Position numbers and translations under genes: made by a program. A stretch of DNA of 64,000 bases from Capsaspora owczarzaki ATCC 30864 (taxonomy: Eukaryota > Opisthokonta > Filasterea), in NCBI RefSeq assembly GCF_000151315.2, contig NW_011887294.1, forward strand, positions 1,037,951 to 1,101,950. Direction: 5' to 3'. The first letter of the stretch is position 1; each line of letters opens with the position of its first letter. Under the pieces are notes generated by a model. The model saw only the letters and a list, made by a program, of their open reading frames with translations. It had not been told where the DNA came from and ran no database searches. This document shows, one piece after another, positions 32,474 through 62,778 of the stretch.

Positions 32474-33194
32474 GCGAAAGTTGGCCGCTGGACCGATCTC
32501 CTTTTGTCTTTTTTTGCTTGAACGCGGTTTGGTTGTCGGAAAAAAAAAAGAAAGAAAAGCTCATTGCTGCTTCACCAACCGTGTTTGTTTCTTGAGTCGT
32601 TTGTTTGTGTCTACTCCCTCTCCTCCTCCTCCCCCCAAATGTCGTGTTGTGCACCTACCCTTATGTGTATTGTGCGTTCTCCTGTACGACCATTTTTGAA
32701 CAGTACATGTCTCTCATTTTTTTTCCCCCCGTCCAGTCGCATGTGTTCTCGATCTGTTTTTCTTTTCTCGTGCATGTAAAACCAAGCATCCAATCTGACC
32801 CAGCAACAAAAAGAAGAGGCGAATGGACGTGTAGTTGGGTTGGCAAAGATCGATCGAATCCACACTTTCTTCCTTCCTCCTTTGGTTTTGAAATCTCCCG
32901 AACGCCCGAGCACATGTTCAGATTTTCAACAAACTCAAAGCCACGCGACGTATTCGCCATCGCAGTTTGATCAAACATGCAAAAAGGCGCACATCCATCA
33001 ACAAACCCAGCCTAAGTCAAACAGAAGGGCGAAAAACAAGAACGCCAACGTTCACTTTTCCTACCTGTCCGAAAAGAATCCTTTATTCGGAATAAATCCA
33101 GGAGCTGCTCACTCCTTCCACGCAGTCCTACCATTTGCTCCTAGTACTTTAAAGTAGGATAGAGCGAGATTGAAAACGACCGTCTCTGACAGCT
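32474..33194. other. intergenic region between ARPC2 and the GT6 gene
   Basis: 721 bp with T/C-rich 3' UTR-like sequence near ARPC2. No ORF with recognisable content. Confidence 0.4.
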
Positions 33195-34262
33195 ATGGTG
33201 GCATTATCTGGTGTATCTCGTCGAAAGCGGCTCGCGTTATTGTGCACCGCAGGGTTTCTGATCTCCCTCGTGCTGAGCTATCTGTTCGCCATTCGCTACA
33301 TTGAAAACCAACGGCGTGCAGAGAAAGAGGCACTGCACGAACGTGTGATTGAGCAGTTTAGTCATGTTCCGACTGCCCAGTGCGCCATGCTCCGTTCCAA
33401 TGCATCGGAGAATGCACATCCTGACGCTGGCAACGCGCAAGCGGCGCCGCTCGTTCCCGGCACAGATCAACTTCGACCCGGCAATCGTTTGCTCACCTAT
33501 AACGCTGCGTGTCCTGTGCCAAAACACACGCTGAACATTGGACTCGTTGTCACTGTCACTGGCCGCTACATGCAGTTCTTCAAGCGCTTTTCGACCTCTG
33601 CCGGCAGCTTTTTCTTCCCGAATCACAACGTGACCATCTTTGTCTTCACGGATCAGCCCCTTCCCCCACTAGATTGGGGCGAAATCTCGCCGACCGTCAA
33701 GGCCATCCCAAAGACCCGGTTGCCCTGGCCGTACGACTCGCTCATGCGATTTGGCACGCTTCTCCAGCACGCCAAAGAGTTTGAAGGCATGGACTACCTT
33801 TACGCCCTCGATGTCGACTTTGCCTTTAATACGTACGTCTGCGAGGACTTTCTCGCAGACCTCGTCGGTGTTCAGAATGGCTACCACCCTGGCACAAAAG
33901 GCACGCCAGACCACAATCCAGCGTCGACTGCGTTCATCGCGCCAGGGACGAACACGCACTACTATGCGGGCGGCGTCTATGGCGGCAAGCATGGGCGCGT
34001 CTTCCAGGTGGCCGAGGCTGTGCACAGCAACATCATGACCGACATGCGCAATCGCGTGATGGCACTGTGGCACGACGAAAGCCATCTCAATCGGTACTTT
34101 GTCGACCACCCGCCATCCATCACGCTGAGCGCAGAGTACTGCTACATGCCATACACCAAGTGGGTGCCGCTTGTGCACTCTTACGCCGAGCTCGGAGTGG
34201 TTGTGCCGCGCATTGTGCACTACGAGTATCTGAAGGCGGATCTTCGCGAGGAGTATGTGTGA
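33195..34262 (+). CDS. GT6-family (ABO/alpha-1,3-Gal type) glycosyltransferase, type II membrane protein
   Basis: Single exon, 355 aa. A short basic N-terminus is followed by a transmembrane helix ('LALLCTAGFLISLVLSYLF'), a stem, and the catalytic domain from about residue 110. The GT6 landmarks are present in order: 'LNIGLVVTVTGRYMQFFK', 'NHNVTIFVFTDQPLP', the metal-binding DXD in 'YLYALDVDFAF', 'HYYAGGVYGGK' and 'ALWHDESHLNRYF'. GT6 enzymes transfer Gal or GalNAc in alpha-1,3 linkage to glycans in the Golgi. The donor-selecting positions cannot be assigned here. Having no intron sets it apart from most neighbours. The family is known mainly from vertebrates and some bacteria, so its history is of interest. 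Confidence 0.88.
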   Translation: MVALSGVSRRKRLALLCTAGFLISLVLSYLFAIRYIENQRRAEKEALHERVIEQFSHVPTAQCAMLRSNASENAHPDAGNAQAAPLVPGTDQLRPGNRLLTYNAACPVPKHTLNIGLVVTVTGRYMQFFKRFSTSAGSFFFPNHNVTIFVFTDQPLPPLDWGEISPTVKAIPKTRLPWPYDSLMRFGTLLQHAKEFEGMDYLYALDVDFAFNTYVCEDFLADLVGVQNGYHPGTKGTPDHNPASTAFIAPGTNTHYYAGGVYGGKHGRVFQVAEAVHSNIMTDMRNRVMALWHDESHLNRYFVDHPPSITLSAEYCYMPYTKWVPLVHSYAELGVVVPRIVHYEYLKADLREEYV

Positions 34263-36802: not shown

Positions 36803-38605
36803 TCATTGTACAAGGAGGAAGCAGTTGACAAAAAACGGATGCACGGAAGCCGCGCCCAGCACAGCATTCACAAGATGTTCGATATAATTCATAAAGAGCG
36901 TGGTTCGAATGGCCGAGTCTGCAATTTTACCAAAGGCATTCGACAATGCAGCCACCGCTGAAGCCAGGCGAGCAGGATCCAACTCGCCATTTAGCACGTC
37001 AGGTGAGCTCAGGCCGGTGTCCCACTCGAGCAGCTGACGATACAGCAGTGTGGCGGAGGTTTGTATGTGACTGGCGGTCAGCACTGAGGCGCATGTGCCC
37101 TCCACTTGAGAATAAAGGGTCGCATTCTGTAGCATTTCGCCGCTCGCATAGAGACGCCGGTAGCGCTGCTCGACAAGCATTGCCATGAATCGGGCAACCG
37201 GGGCGGCCGTGTCAGCAGCAGGCGCGGGCGCAAACCAATGTAGGCTGTGCTGGGCGTGGACGTCCTCGACCAGCTTGCTGATCAGCAGCATTGCGGCAAA
37301 GACGGTGCCAGTTTGCGACCAATGGCTCTCGAACGGGACAGGCATGCTGTAGACATCGAGCATGACGCTGTACTCTGGTGCGTCCGACCACGCATTCACA
37401 GACAAGCTGTCCGGCTCGAGTGTTTCGACCTGGTGAAACCAGAACGGCGGCAGGTAGAGCATATCACCGGGGCCCAACTCGGCAGTGTAGACTTCCGCTC
37501 GTGCAAAGCCCGGGAAATTCACCAATTCCGCCTGCGGATTCAGCGAACTGATATTCACTTGCGCGTGTCCATAGTGCGGATGCAAGCACGGATACAGGTA
37601 CATGGACGTGGAGGGAGGCAGCAGCGTAAAGCGTTTGCGTCCGCGGAGTTGCACGAAAAAGTTGAATGTGGCATCGTAGTGTGTTGATGTGACAATGCCT
37701 CGTCGACCAATCCACAGGTTGCTAACGCGGCCTTCGTCCGAAACCTGCAGCTGTTCCAGACCTTGCAGATCGCGCAGCAGCGTCTCCCGTTCCTTGAGCA
37801 AGTCGATTGCCGACGTAAAGTACAAGAAGACGCCATCCGTGTTGTCCTTGAGCACCACCGATGGAGCCACGGCAACTAAAGGGAGGGTACACCAAGCACA
37901 ACGGAAAAAACGAAGGATTTAAGACAACAGACCAACCTGAAAGAACTTGCTGCAATAATACACCAAATCACATGTGAGCATGCCAAAATGGCACTCACCT
38001 TGTGCATTGTAGTCCTGCCACCGCTTGGTCGCCAGCAGCGGCTCCATTGGCTTGTTGTCATGGAACGTTGTAAAGAAGCGCCGGTTCTGAGATTGTCGGT
38101 AGACTTTGACCTGTTTGAGCGTCTTGGTCAGGTTGCCGCTCCTGAGATCCCATTCCTTGCGCGCCGTCCACTGATCAGCAAGCGTCTCGTTCATTAGGAC
38201 TGGCATGCGTTGTGTTCGGGCGAGTTGAGCATACGCACTACGACTCTGCGTTTCAGACGTTTCAGGCGGTGAGGACGGAAGGACGCTCTTGGCGCGGACG
38301 ACGGACAGCTGGCGGAATCGCGTGTGGATTGGCAACGGCATCGGGACAATCAGCTGGTTGTCCGACAGTGTAATATGCGAGGGGAAGGTGCCTCGGTGGA
38401 AGGCGTCCTTGGAGGCGATGTGGGAGGAGCTCGAGCCGCCACTGCCGCCGCGACCAAGCAGCCAAGCAGCGACGACAGCGAGGCATCCGAGCAGTTGGAT
38501 GATCTTGAGGCGATTTGGCACGATTCCAGCCGGAGGAGCGTTGTTGCCACGACTGGAGGTGGTGGTTGGAGTGGGAACTGACTCGCGTTGCTGTTTGGGC
38601 GGCAT
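36803..38605 (-). CDS. membrane-anchored JmjC-domain oxygenase
   Basis: Two exons: 38605-37999 and 37875-36803; 559 aa. After about 35 polar residues there is one transmembrane helix ('IIQLLGCLAVVAAWLLG'), then a region with no recognised domain, then a cupin/JmjC fold from about residue 200. Iron ligands are visible as H-x-D in 'GIVTSTHYDATFNFFVQL' and the distal His in 'GDMLYLPPFWFHQVE'. 'RGRKRFTLLPP' supplies the Lys expected to hold 2-oxoglutarate. This resembles the cupin-8 hydroxylases of the FIH/JMJD5/TYW5 group rather than histone demethylases. An N-terminal signal anchor would put the enzyme in the ER or Golgi lumen. The C-terminal 150 residues are helical and unassigned. Confidence 0.82.
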
Positions 38606-42437: not shown

Positions 42438-45400
42438 ATGGTCGACACGGACAAGCCCGAGGACGCCGTCTTTGACGACATGGTTGAGATTGGCGACCTG
42501 CACGAGCTTTCCATCCTCGCTAACCTCCAGCGGCGGTTTGAGCGCGACATTATCTACACGTACATTGGTAAGGCCCTCAAGTTTTGTTCTTCGCCAGTTG
42601 TTTTTCTTGTCGCCTCGGTTGGACCACCATGTGTCGTCACAAAACCGCAACTTTGTGGTTGTTGATTGTTGATTGTTTCACTTTTGGTTTTGTTCCGCTG
42701 TCAATCTCCTCACACCACGCTTCTTGGTTGTTGTTGTTGTTGTTGTTGCTGTTGTCGTTGTTGTTGTCAACCCCTCCCCCGCTCAATCAACACCAGGCAA
42801 AATCGTACTCGTCGCAGTCAACCCGTACAAGCAGCTGTCGGTCGCGCCACCACAAAACTCGATCAACCCGTTCGCCAAGCTCTCGCTGCATGGCGCCGAG
42901 TTGGCCAACACGTACCGCATGAAGCGCGCCGGCGAGCTTCCGCCGCACATTTTTGCTACTGCCCAGGAGGCGTACCACCACATGATGCGCGATCGCAAGA
43001 GCCAGTGCGTTGTTGTGAGCGGCGAGAGCGGCGCAGGCAAGACCTTTTCGACGCAGCTCATTCTCAACTACCTCGCGAACGCTTCGGCTGCGGCGGCAGA
43101 CAAGTTTGGCAGCGTCCCTGGCCTTCCCACCAGCACCAGCACCAGCACTAGCACCAGCACCAGCACGACGACAGCTGCTGCATCTGTGCAGACTGCCGGG
43201 GCCCTCACCATGAAGGACTCGATCGGCAAGCGCTTGCTCGCTGCTGGGCCCGTGCTGCAGGCGTTTGGCAACGCCACCACCGTGTACAACCCCAATTCCA
43301 GTCGCTTTGGCAACTACATTCAGATTGTGTTTGACAGCAACGGCCGAATTCAAGGCGCCAACATTCAGCAGTACCTCTTGGAAAAGTCGCGCATCATCCA
43401 GCAAGCAGATCGCGAGCGAAACTACCACGTCTTTTACAACTTGTTGACCTTTGAGGACCTTGTCGCCGAGCTCCAGATGGGGCCGCCGTCCAACTATGCC
43501 TATTTGATTCCGCACATTCCTGCGGCGCCCAACGCAGCAGGAGCAGCGCCCCACCTGTCTGCCATGCCTAAGAGCTCGAGCCAGAGCAACTTTTTGAACG
43601 TGAACAGCGGACAGCCAGCCCCAAACCGCAGGAGCAGCATGCGTCGCACGTCCGACGCAGGTCCGTTGATTGACGATGTCGGCGACGGCATCAAGCTGCG
43701 CGCCTCGCTCAAAACACTCGAGTTCACCAACGAGGAGGTCAGCGACCTCTTCCGAGTGGTCTTTGGCGTGCTTCTGATTGGCAATGTGAATCTGGTTGCG
43801 GGCGAGTCCTCCAACATGGAGAGCACGGCCATTCGCAACCCCGTCCTGCTGGACATGATCTCGAAGGTTCTCGGTCTCAGCCAGGCGCATCTCAAGGCGC
43901 TCATGACAGAGCAGGTCTCGCGGTTTTCCACTGGCGAAGTCGTGACGCGCACCATGTCTGTGCAGCAGGCGCTGACGACCCGCGACAGTATCGCTAAAGC
44001 CCTGTACGCATGCATCTTCCACTGGGTTGCCAACCGCATCAACCGCGTGATCAAAGGCGCACTGGGCACCGACCGTCCCGGCGGCAACAGCAGCAGCAGC
44101 ACCAGCGCTGCAGAGTTGGATGTGAATGCGCTCCCCGCTGGCTGCACTGCCATCAACGTGCTGGACATTTTCGGCTTTGAGAATTTCGCCCACAACTCGT
44201 TCGAGCAGCTCTGCATCAACTTTGCCAATGAGCAACTGCACCAATTCTTCTCGACCTACATGTTCAAGGTCGAACAGGCCGTCTATGTCGAGGAGCAGAT
44301 CAACTGGGAGCAAATGTCCTTCCCAGACAACCAGCCGTGCTTGGACCTCATTGGGCATGCCAAGCTCTCCATCTTGTCGCTGGCCGACGAGGAGTGCATC
44401 ATGCCCAAGGCCACAGACCTGACGCTCATGGAGAAGATTACCAAACACAACTCGACCCATCCCTTCTTCAAGGCCAAGGCCAACAAGCTGTTTGGAGTAC
44501 GGCACTATGCCGGCCTTGTGTTTTACGATCCGCAGGGCATCCTCGTCAAGAATAACGACTCGCTTGGCGAAGAGGCCCTCAACTTGTTGCGCCAAAGCAA
44601 AAAGCCGCTCATTGGCGACATGATCAACCTGTACTACGGGCCCGGCAAGTCGTCGACGGCTGGCAAGCGCAAGACCATCGGCACGCAGTTCCGCGACTCG
44701 CTCAAGCAGCTCATGACGAGCTTGTCGGCCTGCAACCCGTTCTTTGTGCGATGCATCAAGCCCAACATTTCCATCACACCGGGCTTGTTTGAGGAGGCGA
44801 TTGTGCTCGAGCAACTCAAGTATCTCGGCCTGCTGGAGACGGTCAAGATTCGCAAGCACGGCTTCCCCTTCCGCTACAAGTTTGACGAGTTTGTCGCCCG
44901 CTACAGGATTCTGCTTCCGCGGCCTCCCAAGCCTGCGACGTCGGCCACGTACGGGCTTGGCCGCACCGCAACCAAAGCTCCGTCCACGCCGGCTCCAAAG
45001 CCACTGGACAGCCGCACTCTCACCCAGCAGCTGCTCGATTCGCTCGGCAAGACTGTGCCCAGCAAGTCCAAAGGAGGCGCCGCGGCGGCGCCCCAGTCGC
45101 TCTACAAGATGGGCAAGACTCGCGTGTTTTTGCCCCTCGAGTACGAAATGAACTTGGAGCAGCTGCTGGAACTGGCCAAGGTGACGTGCGCGCGACGCAT
45201 CCAACGCACCTTCCGCAAGTGGTTCCACACCCGCAAGCTCAACGTCAAGGCGCGTGCCATCCAGCGCTTCTACCGCACCTATCGCGCCCGCAGGTACTTC
45301 CTCAAGGCGCGCGCCATCGCCAAAGCTCTCCAGCCGGTCGCGCGCGGCTACATTGCACGCGTTGATGCAAACAAGCTTCGAACGGCCAAGCGCATCGAGC

Positions 45401-47700
45401 GTGAGGAACGTCTGCGCCGCGAGCGCGAGGAGGAGGAACGTCGAAAGGCTGAGCTTGCCGCTCTCGAGCGCGAGACCAAGGAGCGCCAGGAAGCCGAGCG
45501 TCGCCGCATTGCCGAGGAAGAAGCCGAGCGCCAACGAGTCGAGGCCGAGCGTCTGGCTGAAGAGCGCCGCCTGCGCGAGCAGGAGGAAGAAAAGGAGCGC
45601 CTGGAGCGAATGCGCATTGCCGTGGAGCAAGCCGAGCGCGAGCGCATTGAGCGCGAAAAGATTGACATGCTTGCGGCCAAGGAGCGACACCAGCAGTCCA
45701 ACGCGACGGCGTCCATGGCGGCCCGCTCGTTCCAAGACTTGTCCAAGGAGGTCGACAACGACGCTCGCGCCAATCCGAACGACGAGGAGGCCCCATTGAC
45801 CAGCGGCAACGACGGTGCATCGAGTGGCGACCTTCTGTCCCCGTCATCGTTGGCTGCGGCCGCTGCTGCTGCCGCGACCTCTCGCATGCTCGCCTCGCCC
45901 GTGCACGCCCTGCCGCCCGTGCTGGAGTCCTGCGCTGGGTACCAGATCGAAGGACCGTCCTTGGTTCGTGCGCGTCGTGGGGCTGCTTTCATCGAGGTCA
46001 CCCGTGACAACCGCTGGTGGAAGCACTTTTTCTACCAAAAGGAGCACATTACGGTGGCTGCCAAACACGAGTCCCTGGGCACCGTGCTGGTGTCGATCGT
46101 CGCGCGCTCTGCAGAAGACATTGTCTCGACTGCCGCGACCGATCCCGCCACGTACCGCGCGATTGTCTGGACCAAGCTCGGCTTTGGTCTTGCCAGCTTC
46201 TCTCCTCCCGACCAAGACTACTCTGAGGCCGCCGGAGAAATCGTCAAGGGCAAGAAGAAGCAGTACCGCGCTCACGAGCTGATGGACATGGCTGTGGATC
46301 GCTTTGGCCACACGCTGGGCGACAAGTGGAAGCTCCGCGAGAACTGCTTCCAGGTGCGCAACTCGGACTGCGACGACAAGCTCTTGCGTCTGGAAGAGGA
46401 CAACCACAAGTTCTACTACCCCCAGCACTACAAGTTTGGCGTGCTGCTGATGCGCGAAGGCCAGACGGACGAAACGCTCTTGTTCTCCAACTGCAACGAT
46501 GGGCGTGCGGGCGAGCCTCCACGCTGCCCTTCGTTCGACGCCTTCCTTGATCTGATTGGCACCAAGGTCCGCCTACAAGGCTTTGACAAGTTCCGCGGCG
46601 GTTTGGATGTCAAGACCGACCTCACCGGCACGCACTCGTACGCTGCCACGCGTGATGCTGGGCCATCGACGGATGAAATCATGTTCCACGTCTCCTCCAT
46701 GCTTCCGTTTGCCCGCGACCAGCCCCAGCAGCCCGAGCGCAAGCGACACATTGGCAACGACGTCTGTCTTGTCGTGTTCAACGACGGCACCACGCCATAC
46801 GCGCCCCAGACCGTCAAGTCGCACTTTATCCACGTGCTGATTGTCGTGCACTTGGTTTCTGCAGCCTCCGAGGACGGCAGCGTGCCTGCACAGTACCGCG
46901 TCGGCGTCGCGTACAAGGACACGGTGAGCGAGTTTTCGCCTCCCATCACGCACGAGCTCTGGGCGCACGGACCTGAGCTGCGCGAGTTTTTGATCAACAA
47001 GCTGATCAACGGCCAGCGCGCCGCGCTCAAGTGCGAGTCCTTCCAAGAGCCCTTCCGCAAGTACCGCTCGTCCGTACTGGACCAGCTGTACCATGTTGCC
47101 GCCGAGCAGCGCGGCGAGAAGGCCTGGCGATCGCGCGCGAGCAAGCAGACGGTCAAGACGCATCTCGGTTCGATTCGCAAGTTCAACTCGATGGACAGCG
47201 ACGACCTCCACGCACTCCGCCTCTTGCGCTACGAGCAGGACGAGCGCAAGGCTGCGGAGAAGGATTTCGCCGAGGCTGCCAAGAAAGCCAAGGGCGGCAG
47301 TCTGTTCCTGAGTGGCAAGCGGTCCAGCTCGGCGACCAAACTCCAACTCGAAAACCGCTTTTCGTCCGTCACGGAGGCCACCACCAGCAGTGCTCCCTCG
47401 TCTCCCGTCGCCGTGCCGCGTCGTGGCCGCGCGACCACCATGGTGGGCGCTCCTTCGCCGCTCGCGCTCGAGGGAGGCCCGATCAGCCCGACCAGCCCGA
47501 CTTCTCCCCAGAGCGAGAAGAAGCGGTGGCGCTTGCTGACATCGTTGCGCGGCACTCCCAAGAGTCCCGACGGCTCGTCTCCCGTTGAGCCCCTGTCTCC
47601 TGTCGACACCAACTTTCCCGATGCCAACACGACCCTGTCTTCTTCCCCGCCCATCGTGAACAAGCAAGTTGCGCAGCTTCGGCAGCAGGAGGACATGTGA
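42438..47700 (+). CDS. myosin heavy chain with C-terminal RapGAP domain
   Basis: Two exons: 42438-42567 and 42797-47700; 1677 aa. The motor spans residues 1 to about 835: Walker A 'GESGAGKT' (119-126), switch I 'NPNSSRFG' (208-215), switch II 'DIFGFENF' (about 500-507) and 'CNPFFVRCIKPN' near the converter. About three IQ motifs follow (840-900: 'RRIQRTFRKW', 'RAIQRFYRTYRARR'), then about 100 residues of alternating Glu and Arg likely to form a single alpha-helix. From about 1110 the tail matches Rap1GAP: 'RWWKHFFYQKEH' (human YWRHYFLGKEH), 'HYKFGVLLMREGQTDE', 'LQGFDKFRGGLDV', 'TDEIMFHVSSMLPF' and the catalytic-helix motif 'RKRHIGND' (HIGND at about 1361), retaining the Asn thumb. The C-terminus is Ser/Pro-rich. 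The frame is open throughout, so the fusion is encoded in one exon. The motor class is not settled; there is no SH3-like N-terminus. Confidence 0.95.
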
Positions 47701-48903: not shown

Positions 48904-51900
48904 ATGTCACTGGATTACGAGGCGATGACGCCAGAACAGCGGAAGTTGTTTGAGCAAGTCAAGAATGCGAGTGGTGAGCTCTAGTAAGAAAGCAAAGACA
49001 AAAGACGAAAGTGCTGAATTATGACACTGACATGCGGCGACAGTTTCCGTTACCGTCACATTGGTGATGTTGAAGCGCAAGCAATCGCTGAAGCACTCAA
49101 GGGGAACACAAAGCTCACCAAGCTCACCAAGCTCCAGTAAGTTGCTTGATCAGCCAGATTCAGACGAGTTCTTTCACTCCATGTCTCGACAGTTTGGGCC
49201 GGAATAGGGTTGGTGACGCTGGCGCTCTTTCTATTTCAGCAGCACTCCAAGAAAATACGACTTTGCAATATCTCATGTAAGCGTTTTCAGTGTTGAGTGC
49301 CCACCAACTGCGCAACTCACTGGGAAATCGTTAGTCTGTGTTTGAATCAGATCGGAGACGCTGGGGCTCTTTCCATCTCAGAAGCACTTCAAAAGAATAC
49401 GACTTTGCAAAATCTAGAGTAAGCGTTTTCAATGTTGAATGCCCAACCGCAGCATTACTCACAGATCAATCGGTAGTTTGACGTACAATCAGATCGGTTA
49501 TGTGGAGGAAACGGTACTGCGCCACAGTATCCATCCAACCTTGAAATTGTAAGTTTTCTGCTTCGTCCGAGATGTTCATTAGCGACTCCATTTGAGCCTC
49601 ACTTTCCTTCCACTTTCAGACACATTGCGAATCAGCATCGATCCGGTTCTGTTCGATGCCAGGAAGTTCGCGTGGTCGTGCTTGGCGATCCTTCAGTCGG
49701 CAAGACCTCGCTTGTTAGGGGAATCGCCGACGGTTACGTGCGACAGACGTTCTCCAACTGGCTCAACATTGCCAATTCCACCGATGGTATTGATATTTCA
49801 ACAGTCGTTCTGCGTGAAAAAGGCGAATCCATGATTTTGATCGTTTGGGATTTCGCCGGTCAAGAAGTCTACCTGGTTTCGCACCAGTTCTTTCTTCGTG
49901 AACGAACAGTCTACCTGGTCTTGTTTGACGTGCGTGAAGACTTGTCACTCAATTCGCGCCTTGCCTTTTGGCTCCGCAGCTTGCACGCTTGCGTTCCAAA
50001 CGCCGATATCATTCTTGTTGGAACACACATTGATGATCCGTCATACACTTCGGAGCGGCAGCAAGAGCAAAAACAAAATCTTGCCAATCTGCTCAGCACC
50101 CTGAAAGAATCAAGTGTTTCGTTTAACGTGCGTTCGACCTTCTACATCAACGCGCGGAACTCTACGGGGGCCCCGAGCATGCTGGAACTCAAGACTGCAT
50201 TGTTTCAAGCCGGACAAAAGATGCCGTTTACAATCAACTGTTGGATGGCCGATATCTTCAGTTCAGAGACTCGCTACAGAAGCAAGCTAACGAGTTGGCC
50301 GCCCAGAACAAACCACCCCTCTGTCGATGGCATGAAATGGTCGAGCTTGGCCAGTCACTGCGTCTCAGCGGGCGAGCAATCGATGAATTCATGCAGCTCA
50401 TGCGTTTTCAAGGCTGGGTCGTTTTCCATCGTCTCGCCAATTCAGCGACCCCAGACACGTCCAGTGTTCCCGCGCTGCAACCTGCAACTCTCCTTGCTTC
50501 GTTGGACGACATTGTCATCTTGAACCCTCAATGGTTCACGAAAACAGTCCTGACTGGAGTGATTACGCAGAAACCTCAAGATCGATGGGTCAAGGATGGC
50601 ATTGTGACTCGCAAGGATCTGCATCGAAACGCTTGGAAGGGCATCGATTCTGCGATCTGTGATCAGTTTGTGCTGCTCCTTCAGCGATACGAGCTCTTGT
50701 ACAAGATGAGCGATGGCGATCAGCCTGGAACCGATTCTTCAAGCGCAGGCACTCGCTATGTCATCCCTTCGTACCTGCCAGCCTACAAATCCGACCCTAG
50801 TAAATGGTCTCTGAAGCATGAAGTTGCCATTGTGATGGAGACAAAGTTTTTGCTGGAGGGATTTTTCTCGAGGCTGGTTGTGCGCTTTCACGAGCGGAAA
50901 TTCCACTTGACGGCGTGGCGAGATGCTGTTCTGGTCAATTACGACGGTCCTCGAGCACTACTCCGTGTTCATCGCAACGCTTCCAGTGTGCGCCTCGAGT
51001 TTACCGCTCGCGGGAAGCATCCAGAGAGGCTGCTTCCAACTCTGATTGAGATATTGGACAGGCTCAGCTCGGATTGGTATCCTGGAATCTCGTGGAAAAC
51101 CTACCTGCGCTGCCCCATGCACGAGCCTAATGACAAACCATGCCTGTGGACACTACGACCTCAAGTTCGCGATGCAGTAATCAACAATGAGCAACCTTTA
51201 TCTTGTTCGCACACGCACATCGCGTTTTCAAAGGAGGAATGGCTTCCAGTTCTCAGCTCGCTTTTGCAGCGTCGCTTGAAGGCGGTTTCGCAACCCACAC
51301 CGGAGGATATCGAAGCGCTACGGCAACTCGAACCGCAACCGGCACCGGCGAGCGAGATCCAAACAGCAGCCGCGGAAGCTGCATCACTTGTTGCAGCACA
51401 ACTGATTGCATCTGGAAAGCAAACATTGCAGGAAGTTGGTGCGGCGGCCATCCATTCTGTTCGCGAAGTCGAGAAGCAAGTGACTTCCTCTGGAGTGCAG
51501 CAGCTTCAAAATATTGCCGCTCAGTCAGCGCAGGACTTGCAGCGTTTCAATAGGGCTTTGGATGGCATCATTGGATCGATTCCAAATGCGGTCAAAACTG
51601 ATCCTGTCGAGTTTGATCGGCTGATCCAGTCTACAGTTTTGAAGCGCATCGATGAGCTTGCCAAAGCTTTGGATTCGCGGTTCGATGCGGCAGAATCCCT
51701 GCACCAGGAGCAGAGAAACGAAATCGCTCGTTTTTTCACGAGTCAAGTCCAAATGCAGCTGGACTTGCTGGACAAACCATGCCCGTTGTTGTTTGTCGTG
51801 GTACCGCCGACCAAGAAGTGGCATTCCAAACTCATGGATCTTTACAAATCAAGCCACACTGCGCACCTGCTATGCGCCCACATGGGTACCAACAGCCAGC

Positions 51901-52476
51901 CCGAGTGGCATCGTATCGACAGTCATCCCGGCTACGAAATTGCCAAGTTTTCAAAGTGGCTGAAAAAGTATGGTTCTCGTGTTCGCAGCCTGCTTGAGTT
52001 TGTGCGTCCGTTCCTGAAAGCAGCCAGTTTGGCTCCTGGTGGACCAGATGTAACGGATGCGGTTGATTCTGCCATTACTGCTTTGGAAGACCCGCTCGAG
52101 GCTCTGCCGTACTTGCAAAGATTGCTCGACCACGCTGATCAGCAAAAGGGGTTCCAGCGCGAAAGGAAAGCAACCAGCGCCCGCATCTGCTGCTTCCTCA
52201 GAAGTCACACACTCGTCCCAAGAGGCAGCACGGGAATGGGCTGCTTTCCTATCCAAGAAAGACGAGTACAAGTCCTTTGCCGGTTTGGAGCGAGCTGTTG
52301 TGCTCAGCACGGGCGAGGTTCGTTGGGTCTGTCCGAAGCATGCGCAAGCGCCCATCTATCGCACCAGCTCCATTTCGAGCAGCTCGTCCGCCGGCTCCTC
52401 TAGCAATGCGCCAAGCAGCTCTTCCAGTGGCAACGTTGCTAGCAGCTCTTCCGCGCCATCCACTTCAACACCGTGA
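48904..52476 (+). CDS. ROCO-family protein (LRR-Roc-COR) with two apparent frame breaks
   Basis: Exons 48904-48983, 49044-49136, 49193-49276, 49335-49418, 49477-49548 encode the N-terminus and four LRR units, then a long exon from 49620. The Roc GTPase has G1 'GDPSVGKTS', G3 'WDFAGQE' and 'GTHID' in place of NKxD. COR follows ('GRAIDEFMQLMRFQGWVVFH', 'HERKFHLTAWRDAVLVNYDG'), then a helical region and a C-terminal block ('PCPLLFVVVPPTKKWHS'). The tail ends 'SFAGLERAVVLSTGEVRWVCPKHA' plus a Ser-rich stretch. The frame shifts once between Roc and COR (about 50222-50240) and once near 52150-52175 at an AAAAGGGG run; no intron explains either. No kinase domain is present. Roc-COR proteins dimerise through COR. 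The gene may be recently decayed, or the sequence may carry indels. Confidence 0.82.
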
Positions 52477-59800: not shown

Positions 59801-61414
59801 TCCAGCAGAGCGTCGAGGTCGTTGTCAGTCGTGTCTTCCAAAATAGACGCCGCCTGCGTCTTTGCAATCCGCACGTTCTCAGGGTCGGTGGGCAACGCAA
59901 ACGACGAGGCAAATGTGGAAACCGGCCTCGCGGGACCGAGCCCAAACATGGTATCCAAATTATCCAGGTCGGTTGTGAAGGCAGAGTTTGATTCGTCTTC
60001 ATCCGCCAAGGGCGACTGGACAACGGGAATAGCTTTGGGGGGAATGGACGGGGCGCTGCTGATCTTGAACTCCACGTCCTATCACAACCACAACCACAAA
60101 ACCAAGCACAGTTAAAAATAAAAAAAAATAAAAAAAAACGAGCAAAACACGAACGAGCAATCGGGTGAATCAAGTGGCGAACGTACCGATTGAAGTGCGT
60201 CAAGATCCTCAAGCATGTTTCCAAGCATGTCGTCAAGCATGCCGAATCCAACGGATTGCCGCACAGCTGGCGCTTTTGGAGCCGAAATAGCTTTTGGGGC
60301 AGGAGCTTGCTCTACAGCAGGCTTAGGAGTGGGCTTGGCGGCAGCAGGAACGGCTGCTGCGGCTTGGGGACGGGGACCCAGGGCTGGTGCGGCACCGGGC
60401 TTTGGACCGAGTGCGGGCGCAGGCGAGGTCTCAGCCTTGGCGGCAAATGCACCAGTCAGCAGATCGTCAACGTCAATGGACGGCATGTACGATGGCGGCT
60501 GCGGGGGAGGCCTTGCCACGGGTGCAGGGGTGAAATCGTCGTCTTCATCATCGCTTGGCGTGAAAGTGGCGCCTGCCAATAGCTCGTCCAGCGTGGGCAA
60601 TGCCGTAGCTCCTTTGGGCGAAAGAGCAGGTTCCGGGCTCGGAATGTCGGGCTTGGGAACCGCAACCTCGACAACGGGCGCGGCCTGCACTTTTGGTTTC
60701 GCTTCTGCAGCCGACTTTGGCATGGGCGGAGGCGCCGTTCCAAAGATTTTGGCCGCATTGATTTTGCCAGGCGCTGCAGCAGGAGCAGGGGCCGGGGAGA
60801 CAGCAGCAGTAGAAGCAGCAGCAGCCGGAGATTCTTGTGCCACCTGCTTTGGAGCAGGCGCAGCCGCAGTCTCGGGCTTTGGAGCTCCTGGGGTTGGCTT
60901 CAGTGGCTTTGGCGTTAGCGCTGGGGCTGCGGCAGAATCGGTCGGCGGCGATGTTGGTTTGGCAACGGGTGTTGGTTTCAATGCGCCGAATGGTTTCGGG
61001 GTGGCAGCAGGAGTAGCAGCAGCAGCAGCAGCAGCAGCAGCGCTGGGCTTGGGCTTGATTGGAATGGCAGCTTCAGATGCCGTTGTTGCAGCTGCAGCGG
61101 GCTTCGGTTTGATCGGAATGCCGGGTTCGGTGGCTGGCTTTGGCGCACCAGGTTTCGGGGCGGCAGCTGGCTTCGGGGCGACAGCACCCGCTGGCTTGGG
61201 AGCCACGGGTTTCGGTGTCGAGGCGTCGCCGGTTGTGTCGGGGGTTGAGGGCGATTCAGCGCTGGACGGCGGCGAAGTCGGCGGTTTCTTGGTTGCGACT
61301 GTGGGTTTTGGTGCAGCCGCAGCGCCTGGTGCTGGCTTGGGCGCGACGGGTTTGGGTGCTGCAGCAACAGCAGCCGCCTCTGGTTTGGGTGTCGCTGCTT
61401 CTGGTTTGGGAGGG

Positions 61415-61466
<52 letters not shown>

Positions 61467-61701
61467 AGGCAGGAGCAGGAGCAGGGGCAGCGGGCATTGT
61501 TGCGTCGCCGCCAGTCGCCGCATTCTGGAGGGAGAGCAGCAGCTTCTTCTTGTGGCCGGGCAGGGTGATGCCAATGTCGTCGAGGTCCTCCGGGCTCATG
61601 CTACTGAGGAAGGACATGTCGTCGTAGCCATTATCCACGAAATTGGACAGGTACTTTTCGAGCTTGAGGCCCTTCAGCCACTCCTCGACTGCAGACGCCA
61701 T
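56852..61701 (-). CDS. MRL (Mig10/RIAM/lamellipodin)-like adaptor: SAM, Pro-rich, RA, PH, CH
   Basis: Ten exons: 61701-60187, 60078-59578, 59435-59154, 59034-58858, 58752-58543, 58450-58403, 58325-57474, 57356-57249, 57147-57015, 56919-56852; 1297 aa. Residues 3-68 are a SAM domain ('EEWLKGLKLEKYLSNFVDNG'). About 400 Pro/Ala/Lys-rich residues follow. Then come two helices like the talin-binding sites of RIAM: 'LDDMLGNMLEDLDALQ' (about 489-504; RIAM DIDQMFSTLLGEMDLL) and 'NDLDALLEDLDIG' (about 591; RIAM QDLDALMADL). A basic helix leads into an RA domain ('VIKVYMDGGNAKTVAVD', 673-766) and a PH domain (about 770-895, 'KDQFQGWKKKSVVLRLSGIYV', 'FDTEESFNLWMAAIRVA'). This RA-PH unit is diagnostic of MRL proteins, which bind Rap or Ras and actin regulators. 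The C-terminus (1196-1297) looks like a CH domain ('RYINWLIKH', 'NGVVMLQALE', 'FRENWGALVVFMESLG'). Confidence 0.9.
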
Positions 61702-62778
61702 TTGGACGACGGACGGACGGGGCGACGGAGAATGTTGACCGCTGCTACGAACAAAAGGGGAGTAAGCAAAGAAAAATAACACAAGGAAACAGTGAGCTTG
61801 CTGTTGGTGATCAGTGCTGGTTGAATGAATGAATGAAAAAAAAAAAAAAAAAAAAAAAAGACAAGAATTATAAAAATAAAAAAGGCGATGAAACGTTGTT
61901 GCGCCCTGTTGCTGGAGTGCGCAGCTGATCACGAGCACGCAGCGTGTGAAATCGCAGTGACTGGTCACACGCTCAGCTGACGGCTGTAGGGGAAGGGAAG
62001 GGAAGGGAAGGCGAAATTGCGCGGTTTGATGAAGCGATGGGTTTCGCCTTCCAAATCCGCCAATTTTTTTTTTTTTTTTTTTTTTTTTTAGCTGCTGCCT
62101 TCAACGCGGACAGTTAGCGCGGCGAAGAGCGTTGCAGGCGCATTCAAGTAGGAAGTGCAAGCGATGGCTGTCTCTCGTGAAATGGAGGCAAGTCGGGGGG
62201 AACAAGCTCAGAAGGGCGATGACAGTGGATTGACTACAGTGAGCATTGTGGCACACTGTAAGCAGCTGCTTCACTCTTGCCCACGCAGCGTCTGCGCAGG
62301 TCTCATTCACAAGTTCGGGGGTGGGCAATGATAAAGGCGTAGAACCACAATAAGGAGCAACCAGATGGACGAAGCAAGCGACGCAAAATCGCAGCAAGAT
62401 GAAAACTCGCTGTTTCCAACCATCATACTTTGGGGGAAAGATGGACTGACTGATGGCTTGACTCAAAGGGGGTCAGGCAGTTCAGTCAAACAGTGGCTTC
62501 AGTGGTAAGCCATCAACCCGAGGCACTGACGCTGAACACGCGTGGAGATCGCGAACAAAATAATACAAAATCAAAATAAAACAAAAAACAAACAAACAAA
62601 CAAACATAAAAAAAAAAAAACAAACATAAAAACATAAAAATTGTCACGAAAAAAAAAAAAAAAAAAAAAAAAGCTCCGCTGCAACAAACAAACATTGCAA
62701 AAACGATCACAGCAAACAAGAACAGGAAAATACGTTGATAGCAACTCTAGACAAGAAGAAGAGAAAGCACAAAAGCAG
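61702..62778. other. 1.1-kb intergenic region with long A and T runs
   Basis: A run at 61837-61859, T run at 62065-62089, A runs at 62610-62620 and 62650-62670, and a GGGAA repeat at about 61990-62009. The A runs are T runs on the strand of both flanking minus genes. No ORF supported. Confidence 0.45.

Follow-up and report, generated by a model that had tools for sequence, protein, structure and literature searches.

Positions 42438-47700 on the forward strand of a 64,000-nucleotide stretch of the Capsaspora owczarzaki ATCC 30864 genome (the window; contig NW_011887294.1, positions 1,037,951 to 1,101,950, assembly GCF_000151315.2) contain a gene that joins a myosin motor to a Rap GTPase-activating protein (RapGAP) module. 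The ATG at 42438 and the stop codon at 47698-47700 coincide with the limits proposed in a first-pass annotation of the same DNA. When its two exons are joined the gene codes for 1677 residues (186.5 kDa, or ~187 kDa) without an internal stop, arranged as a myosin motor, about three IQ-like motifs, a charged helix, a linker and the RapGAP module. With moderate confidence, the product is interpreted as an unconventional myosin, an orphan with a RapGAP module of its own, which would serve as a motorised off-switch for Rap. By analogy, it is most likely an actin-transported Rap inactivator that resembles the class IX myosins without being a member of that class. The features of the gene, all on the + strand, are as follows.

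42438..42567, +, exon 1: start codon, the first 43 codons plus one base, and the beginning of the motor
42568..42796, +, intron 1: GTAAGG...CACCAG, GT-AG type, 229 bases
42797..47700, +, exon 2: remaining motor, neck, helix, linker, RapGAP module, C-terminus and stop codon
42859..44925, +, Pfam Myosin_head match, 577.8 bits, residues 21-709 of the exon 2 protein
43021..43044, +, P-loop GESGAGKT, followed by Phe where both reference motors (MYO10, MYO7A) have Glu
43129..43173, +, Ser/Thr repeat coinciding with a CACCAG array, in the insert that follows the P-loop helix
44164..44181, +, switch II, DIFGFE
44917..45132, +, end of the motor (converter region), including a low-complexity insert
45187..45360, +, about three IQ-like motifs, two fitting a loose pattern and the first degenerate
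45364..45696, +, 111-residue charged helix of predicted single-alpha-helix type (Glu 31%, Arg 24%, Lys 6%)
45697..45990, +, linker of low complexity that is coding-like in frame and contains no GTRAG donor
46009..46173, +, supported half of a divergent Rap-GAP dimerisation-type domain
46525..47067, +, match to Pfam Rap_GAP (173.6 bits when the genome was searched)
46738..46761, +, catalytic helix RKRHIGND, whose Asn1364 corresponds in the alignment to Asn290 of Rap1GAP
47104..47697, +, C-terminus rich in Ser and Pro, matching no Pfam domain

Gene structure and the motor-GAP join

The earlier description of one uninterrupted frame holds from motor to GAP, since all but the start of the motor lies with the GAP in exon 2 within a 1675-codon open frame that covers the join, but a 229-base intron (42568-42796) interrupts the gene near the motor start. 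The acceptor of this intron has pyrimidines at 9 of 15 positions, and its sequence has a negative codon score in all three frames. The codon score was trained on the conserved parts of the motor and GAP, with the helix and linker held out; both of these score positive in frame (0.40 and 0.18, respectively) and negative in their other two frames. Intron 1 also contains a GTT triplet array of 13.7 copies (42727-42767) upstream of the acceptor.

A hidden intron separating the motor from the GAP is thought unlikely, judging from the donor scan of 45,600-46,100 and the codon score. Three GTRAG donor-like sites occur in exon 2, none of them within 45,600-46,100. When the pyrimidine rule for acceptors is dropped, the sites at 45968 and 45977, which fit the weaker GTRNG pattern, can each be paired with a single YAG that keeps the frame; an intron at either site would leave motor and GAP joined. 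As far as the open frame and coding signal can tell, the motor and the RapGAP are genuinely parts of one gene.

The RapGAP module

The translated exon 2 matches the Pfam Rap_GAP domain at 168.4 bits against a cut-off of 27, far above chance, which bears out the earlier view of a Rap1GAP-type tail and the Pfam check suggested for it. The motifs WWKHFFYQKEH, FRGGLDV and RKRHIGND are all present in the tail, and FRGGLDV is common to Rap1GAP. The top solved structure is Rap1GAP (1srq; 152.3 bits, E value 1.7e-43), to which RKRHIGND is identical, and the best solved match other than Rap1GAP reaches 57.3 bits; the six solved matches also include chains of tuberin and RalGAP. Over 207 positions the catalytic part is 43.5% identical to Rap1GAP. 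In the accessible text of PMC7804450, N290 of Rap1GAP is the asparagine thumb, and K285, R286, H287 and I288 are residues of the catalytic helix. The window tail is identical to Rap1GAP at all five. The Rap_GAP domain, catalytic helix and asparagine thumb place the tail in the RapGAP family (Rap1GAP-type), and with the catalytic helix intact, predicted catalysis is plausible.

Myosin motor, neck and charged helix

The Myosin_head match of the translated exon 2 (577.8 bits; Pfam cut-off 33.3) is far above chance, and exon 1 adds a weak piece of the same domain from 42474 (23.6 bits, below the cut-off). A head domain in which the P-loop GESGAGKT, switch I NPNSSRFG and switch II DIFGFE are all located and intact places the protein in the myosin superfamily, in keeping with the intact nucleotide-binding motifs noted previously. 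Weak AAA and STAND-type Pfam rows fall on the P-loop. Glu occupies the presumed TEDS site, which we take to lie 16 positions before the DSIAK-type motif, and MYO10 has the same residue there. Extra residues are inserted downstream of the P-loop helix, downstream of the NYAYL stretch and within the converter region, and loop 2 is short. Among the best 60 of 150 solved-structure matches, obtained with a query lacking exon 1, MYO10 (429.4 bits) and MYO7A (429.2 bits) precede MYO15 (387.6 bits) and MYO5A (382.2 bits). Motor identities are 43.4% to the class X-like gene of the same genome (gene K), 43.3% to MYO10, 42.5% to MYO7A and 40.7% to the RhoGAP myosin of the same genome.

The IQ motifs and charged helix of the first-pass annotation were also found, two of the IQ-like motifs by a loose pattern and the first read by eye. 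The helix contains 60 opposite-charge pairs at i+3/i+4 compared with 43.1 (standard deviation 5.0) in composition-keeping shuffles, 0 of 2000 of which reach 60. At the best a/d register, 23% of residues are hydrophobic (Ala excluded). The pattern is that predicted for a single alpha helix, not a coiled coil. An NCBIfam TolA match over the helix (20.3 bits; cut-off 59.45) was taken to reflect composition and was rejected.

Divergent features of the motor and tail

Several results weigh against an active, Rap-directed motor with a complete tail. Motor trees were built from 25 rows and, with the long branches S and T dropped, from 23 rows; the window motor sits on a long branch in both (1.55 and 1.65 changes per column) and has no supported sister in either. 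Because of this long branch, the Phe that gives GKTF for GKTE after the P-loop, and the inserts, the motor could be weak or altered. Acid-to-base pairs at i+4 in the helix are mildly raised (15 compared with 10.7), a number reached in 111 of 2000 shuffles. The Pfam dimerisation domain scores 15.4 and 17.3 bits, short of its cut-off of 27, and the dimerisation part alone matches no solved chain in a phmmer search up to E 10.

The tail was therefore overstated as complete, its dimerisation domain being divergent and below the Pfam cut-off. The dimerisation-like part identified from WWKHFFYQKEH has less support than the first-pass annotation gave it, with hhalign supporting its first half only. 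Compared with a profile of three RapGAPs from the same genome, the dimerisation part scores 37.5 (E value 1.6e-5), against a best score of 19.0 among 100 shuffles, for the first half only; the profile comprises L001, L002 and L008, three of the six other tails, with L003, L004 and L007 excluded. The Pfam dimerisation model is matched at E <=0.1 by four of the seven tails in alignment A1, the window tail included. A profile of all seven tails, six rows of which are other tails, matches 1srq from residue 11 to 327. Judged from these comparisons, the dimerisation half is divergent and recognisable in part.

In the 23-row tree, the window motor falls weakly (78/85) among nine rows with MYO7A, the class X group and the RhoGAP myosin. 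Forced groupings with class IX, represented by the RhoGAP myosin of the same genome (p value of the approximately unbiased test, p-AU, 0.355), class I (0.255), class X (0.467) and class V (0.397) are all unrejected, and none is recovered with support. On this evidence the motor is an orphan: no class assignment has support, and it may lie near the VII/X/IX group.

Myosins, RapGAPs and adhesion genes in the genome

The genome sequence searched comprises 27.46 Mb in 29 contigs, and counts of domain matches are lower bounds. At least 78 Myosin_head matches group into at least 23 genes, which were labelled by nearby tail domains: eight TH1, six MyTH4, one RhoGAP, one DIL, the window gene and six unlabelled. 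At least 18 Rap_GAP matches group into at least 14 loci, some of which may be relatives of RalGAP or TSC2. The pairing of myosin and RapGAP occurs in the window gene only, one of at least 23 myosins and one of at least 14 RapGAP loci.

The catalytic part of the tail is 39-49% identical to seven other RapGAPs of the genome and has no supported sister among them, so the tail is not a recent copy, and an origin by recent local duplication of a RapGAP paralogue was rejected. When the dimerisation part is included, identity to six of these RapGAPs is 31-36%. Forcing the tail to group with Rap1GAP in the RapGAP tree costs 6.54 log units (p-AU 0.133), and forcing it to group with L004 and L007 gives a p-AU of 0.0521. 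L007, on the same contig ~130 kb from the window gene, has the highest identity to the window tail (49%, 134 positions). L004, L007 and the window tail share a slightly longer stretch before the KFG motif; a clade of these three members is unrecovered. A search for relatives among viral contigs gave 77 pattern matches, 0 of which were confirmed.

The genome also contains a Rap1 gene (L041, at C3:854116) with the motifs DTAGTEQF and YDPTIEDSY. In the frame shown, the translation of a second Rap match, L042, is not that of a full Rap. At least four integrin-beta loci, grouped from six matches, and one talin are present.

Relationship to described myosins

The myosin-RapGAP architecture is already known, having been recorded in 2014 and 2017 as a bare domain listing in the accessible text of two surveys. 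One survey names Rap_GAP and zf-MYND as the two domains newly associated with myosins in filastereans, with Rap_GAP filasterean-specific (Sebe-Pedros 2014, PMC3942036); the other gives a C-terminal Rap-GAP in one Capsaspora orphan myosin and one Amphimedon orphan myosin (Kollmar 2017, PMC5583752). Because both list it, the domain pair is not new. The earlier statement that no class with a RapGAP had been described thus stands insofar as no numbered class was found, but the pair itself is in print for Capsaspora, Amphimedon and filastereans (PMC5583752, PMC3942036). RapGAP myosins have no class name and no functional work in the literature searched, which covered few subscription journals.

With a myosin head and a C-terminal Rap-GAP, the window gene has the composition of the RapGAP orphan myosins as they are described in PMC5583752. 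It is probably the Capsaspora orphan myosin recorded there, matched by domain description only: the pair is the same, the RapGAP is C-terminal in both, each is one per genome, and comparison of the descriptions reveals no difference. The Amphimedon queenslandica orphan myosin, from a sponge, has the same stated architecture and is likewise unclassified, compared by description only (PMC5583752).

Class IX myosins have been called a "motorized signaling molecule" (PMC3887004, accessible text). The window protein resembles them in combining a motor and a small-GTPase GAP in one chain, but class IX acts on Rho, and the window protein has no RA, C1 or RhoGAP match and no long loop 2 insert. RhoGAP is a GAP fold unrelated to RapGAP. 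Neither RhoGAP nor C1 domains were matched in the exon 2 protein (Pfam, E 0.1). Only 12 residues precede the Myosin_head piece at 42474, and no N-terminal RA domain was found there; the open frame begins behind a stop codon that lies just upstream of 42324, and an upstream exon may exist. The large basic insertion of class IX type is also absent from loop 2, which does not exceed the length seen in MYO7A and MYO10 (Protein Data Bank constructs). Membership of class IX with a swapped GAP was rejected for want of RA, C1 and RhoGAP matches and of the loop 2 insert; the motor tree is indecisive on this point.

In MYO10, of class X, the IQ motifs of the neck lead into a single charged helix. The window protein has the same order, and MYO10 is, with MYO7A, its top solved motor match among the best 60 of 150. 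Unlike class X, the exon 2 protein lacks a Pfam match to PH, MyTH4 or FERM, and 0 of the 13 MyTH4 matches in the genome lie in or near the window. Rap1GAP (1srq, 3brw) resembles the tail in its catalytic domain and identical catalytic helix, whereas the dimerisation domain of the window protein is strongly diverged. Rap1GAP has no motor.

Alternative explanations

That the motor and GAP represent two genes or transcripts read in one open frame is highly improbable. An internal start upstream of the GAP is possible; against two separate genes or transcripts, the 1675-codon frame crosses the join, the held-out helix and linker are coding-like, 45,600-46,100 has no GTRAG donor, and the accessible text of two published surveys gives the same pair for Capsaspora or filastereans (PMC5583752, PMC3942036). 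The target of the GAP may instead be a different GTPase from Rap1 (a Rheb-like or Ral-like protein or some other relative of Ras), in which case Rap-mediated control of adhesion would not apply. An asparagine-thumb GAP domain also serves TSC2/Rheb (PMC7804450, accessible text), tuberin and RalGAP chains appear among the solved matches, and the tail has no supported sister, with a forced Rap1GAP grouping at the cost noted above. However, Rap1GAP is by far the top solved match and shares FRGGLDV, and another target is considered quite improbable.

More weight is given to the explanation that the head acts as a tether to actin or a sensor of strain, which would hold the RapGAP at fixed places without transport. 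The long branch of the head, the inserts that follow its P-loop helix and lie in its converter region, and the GKTF change are in line with such a role, and the exon 2 protein has no Pfam cargo- or membrane-binding domain besides the RapGAP. However, the intact P-loop, switch I and switch II and the acidic TEDS-site residue fit a working ATPase, and a tether without transport is regarded as unlikely. The preferred interpretation is that of a myosin that delivers Rap inactivation along actin.

Other genes in the window

Five other coding regions were identified in the window. An open frame at 33174-34262 (+) matches glycosyltransferase family 6 (Pfam 133.8 bits; NCBIfam Gltr_6 152.2 bits, below its cut-off of 250), the ABO blood-group enzyme family, which to our knowledge is unusual in protists. 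Downstream of the myosin gene, two overlapping frames at 49477-52403 (+) code for a Roc-COR (Roco-type) GTPase (Roc 77.7 bits, COR-A 41.4 bits, COR-B 43.1 bits). On the reverse strand are a match to the "Transferase" family PF02458 (13002-14189, -; 31 bits, cut-off 22.7), a Cupin_8/JmjC-type domain (36803-37918, -; Cupin_8 113.7 bits) and a SAM domain protein (60112-62100, -; SAM_1 64.2 bits).

Proposed function and significance

Rap is a switch that controls integrin adhesion in animals. In the proposed mechanism, the head would bind actin and walk along or anchor to it, and the charged helix would act as a lever or spacer of ~17 nm (at 0.15 nm per residue) that extends its reach. The tail would then promote hydrolysis of Rap1-GTP to Rap-GDP at actin-rich sites of adhesion or protrusion. 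Pairing of two heads could be provided by the RapGAP dimerisation domain, not by a coiled coil; since that domain has diverged, such pairing is speculation. With Rap1, at least four integrin-beta loci and talin encoded in the same genome, it is plausible that the protein switches off Rap along actin to control adhesion. In the accessible text of PMC9197732, Dictyostelium RapGAP1 is found on actin dots and its loss raises adhesion.

A broader and more doubtful proposal is that RapGAP myosins constitute an unnamed ancient holozoan class, present in filastereans and sponges and lost elsewhere, in which RapGAP dimerisation makes the motor two-headed and Rap inactivation is delivered to integrin-containing protrusions. 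If the interpretation of the window gene is correct, an actin motor and Rap are linked physically and directly in a close relative of animals. As this link would reside in a single gene, it could be tested through one asparagine or one P-loop residue. If its origin is shared with that of the sponge protein, the RapGAP myosin may be a component of the adhesion machinery of early animals that was later lost.

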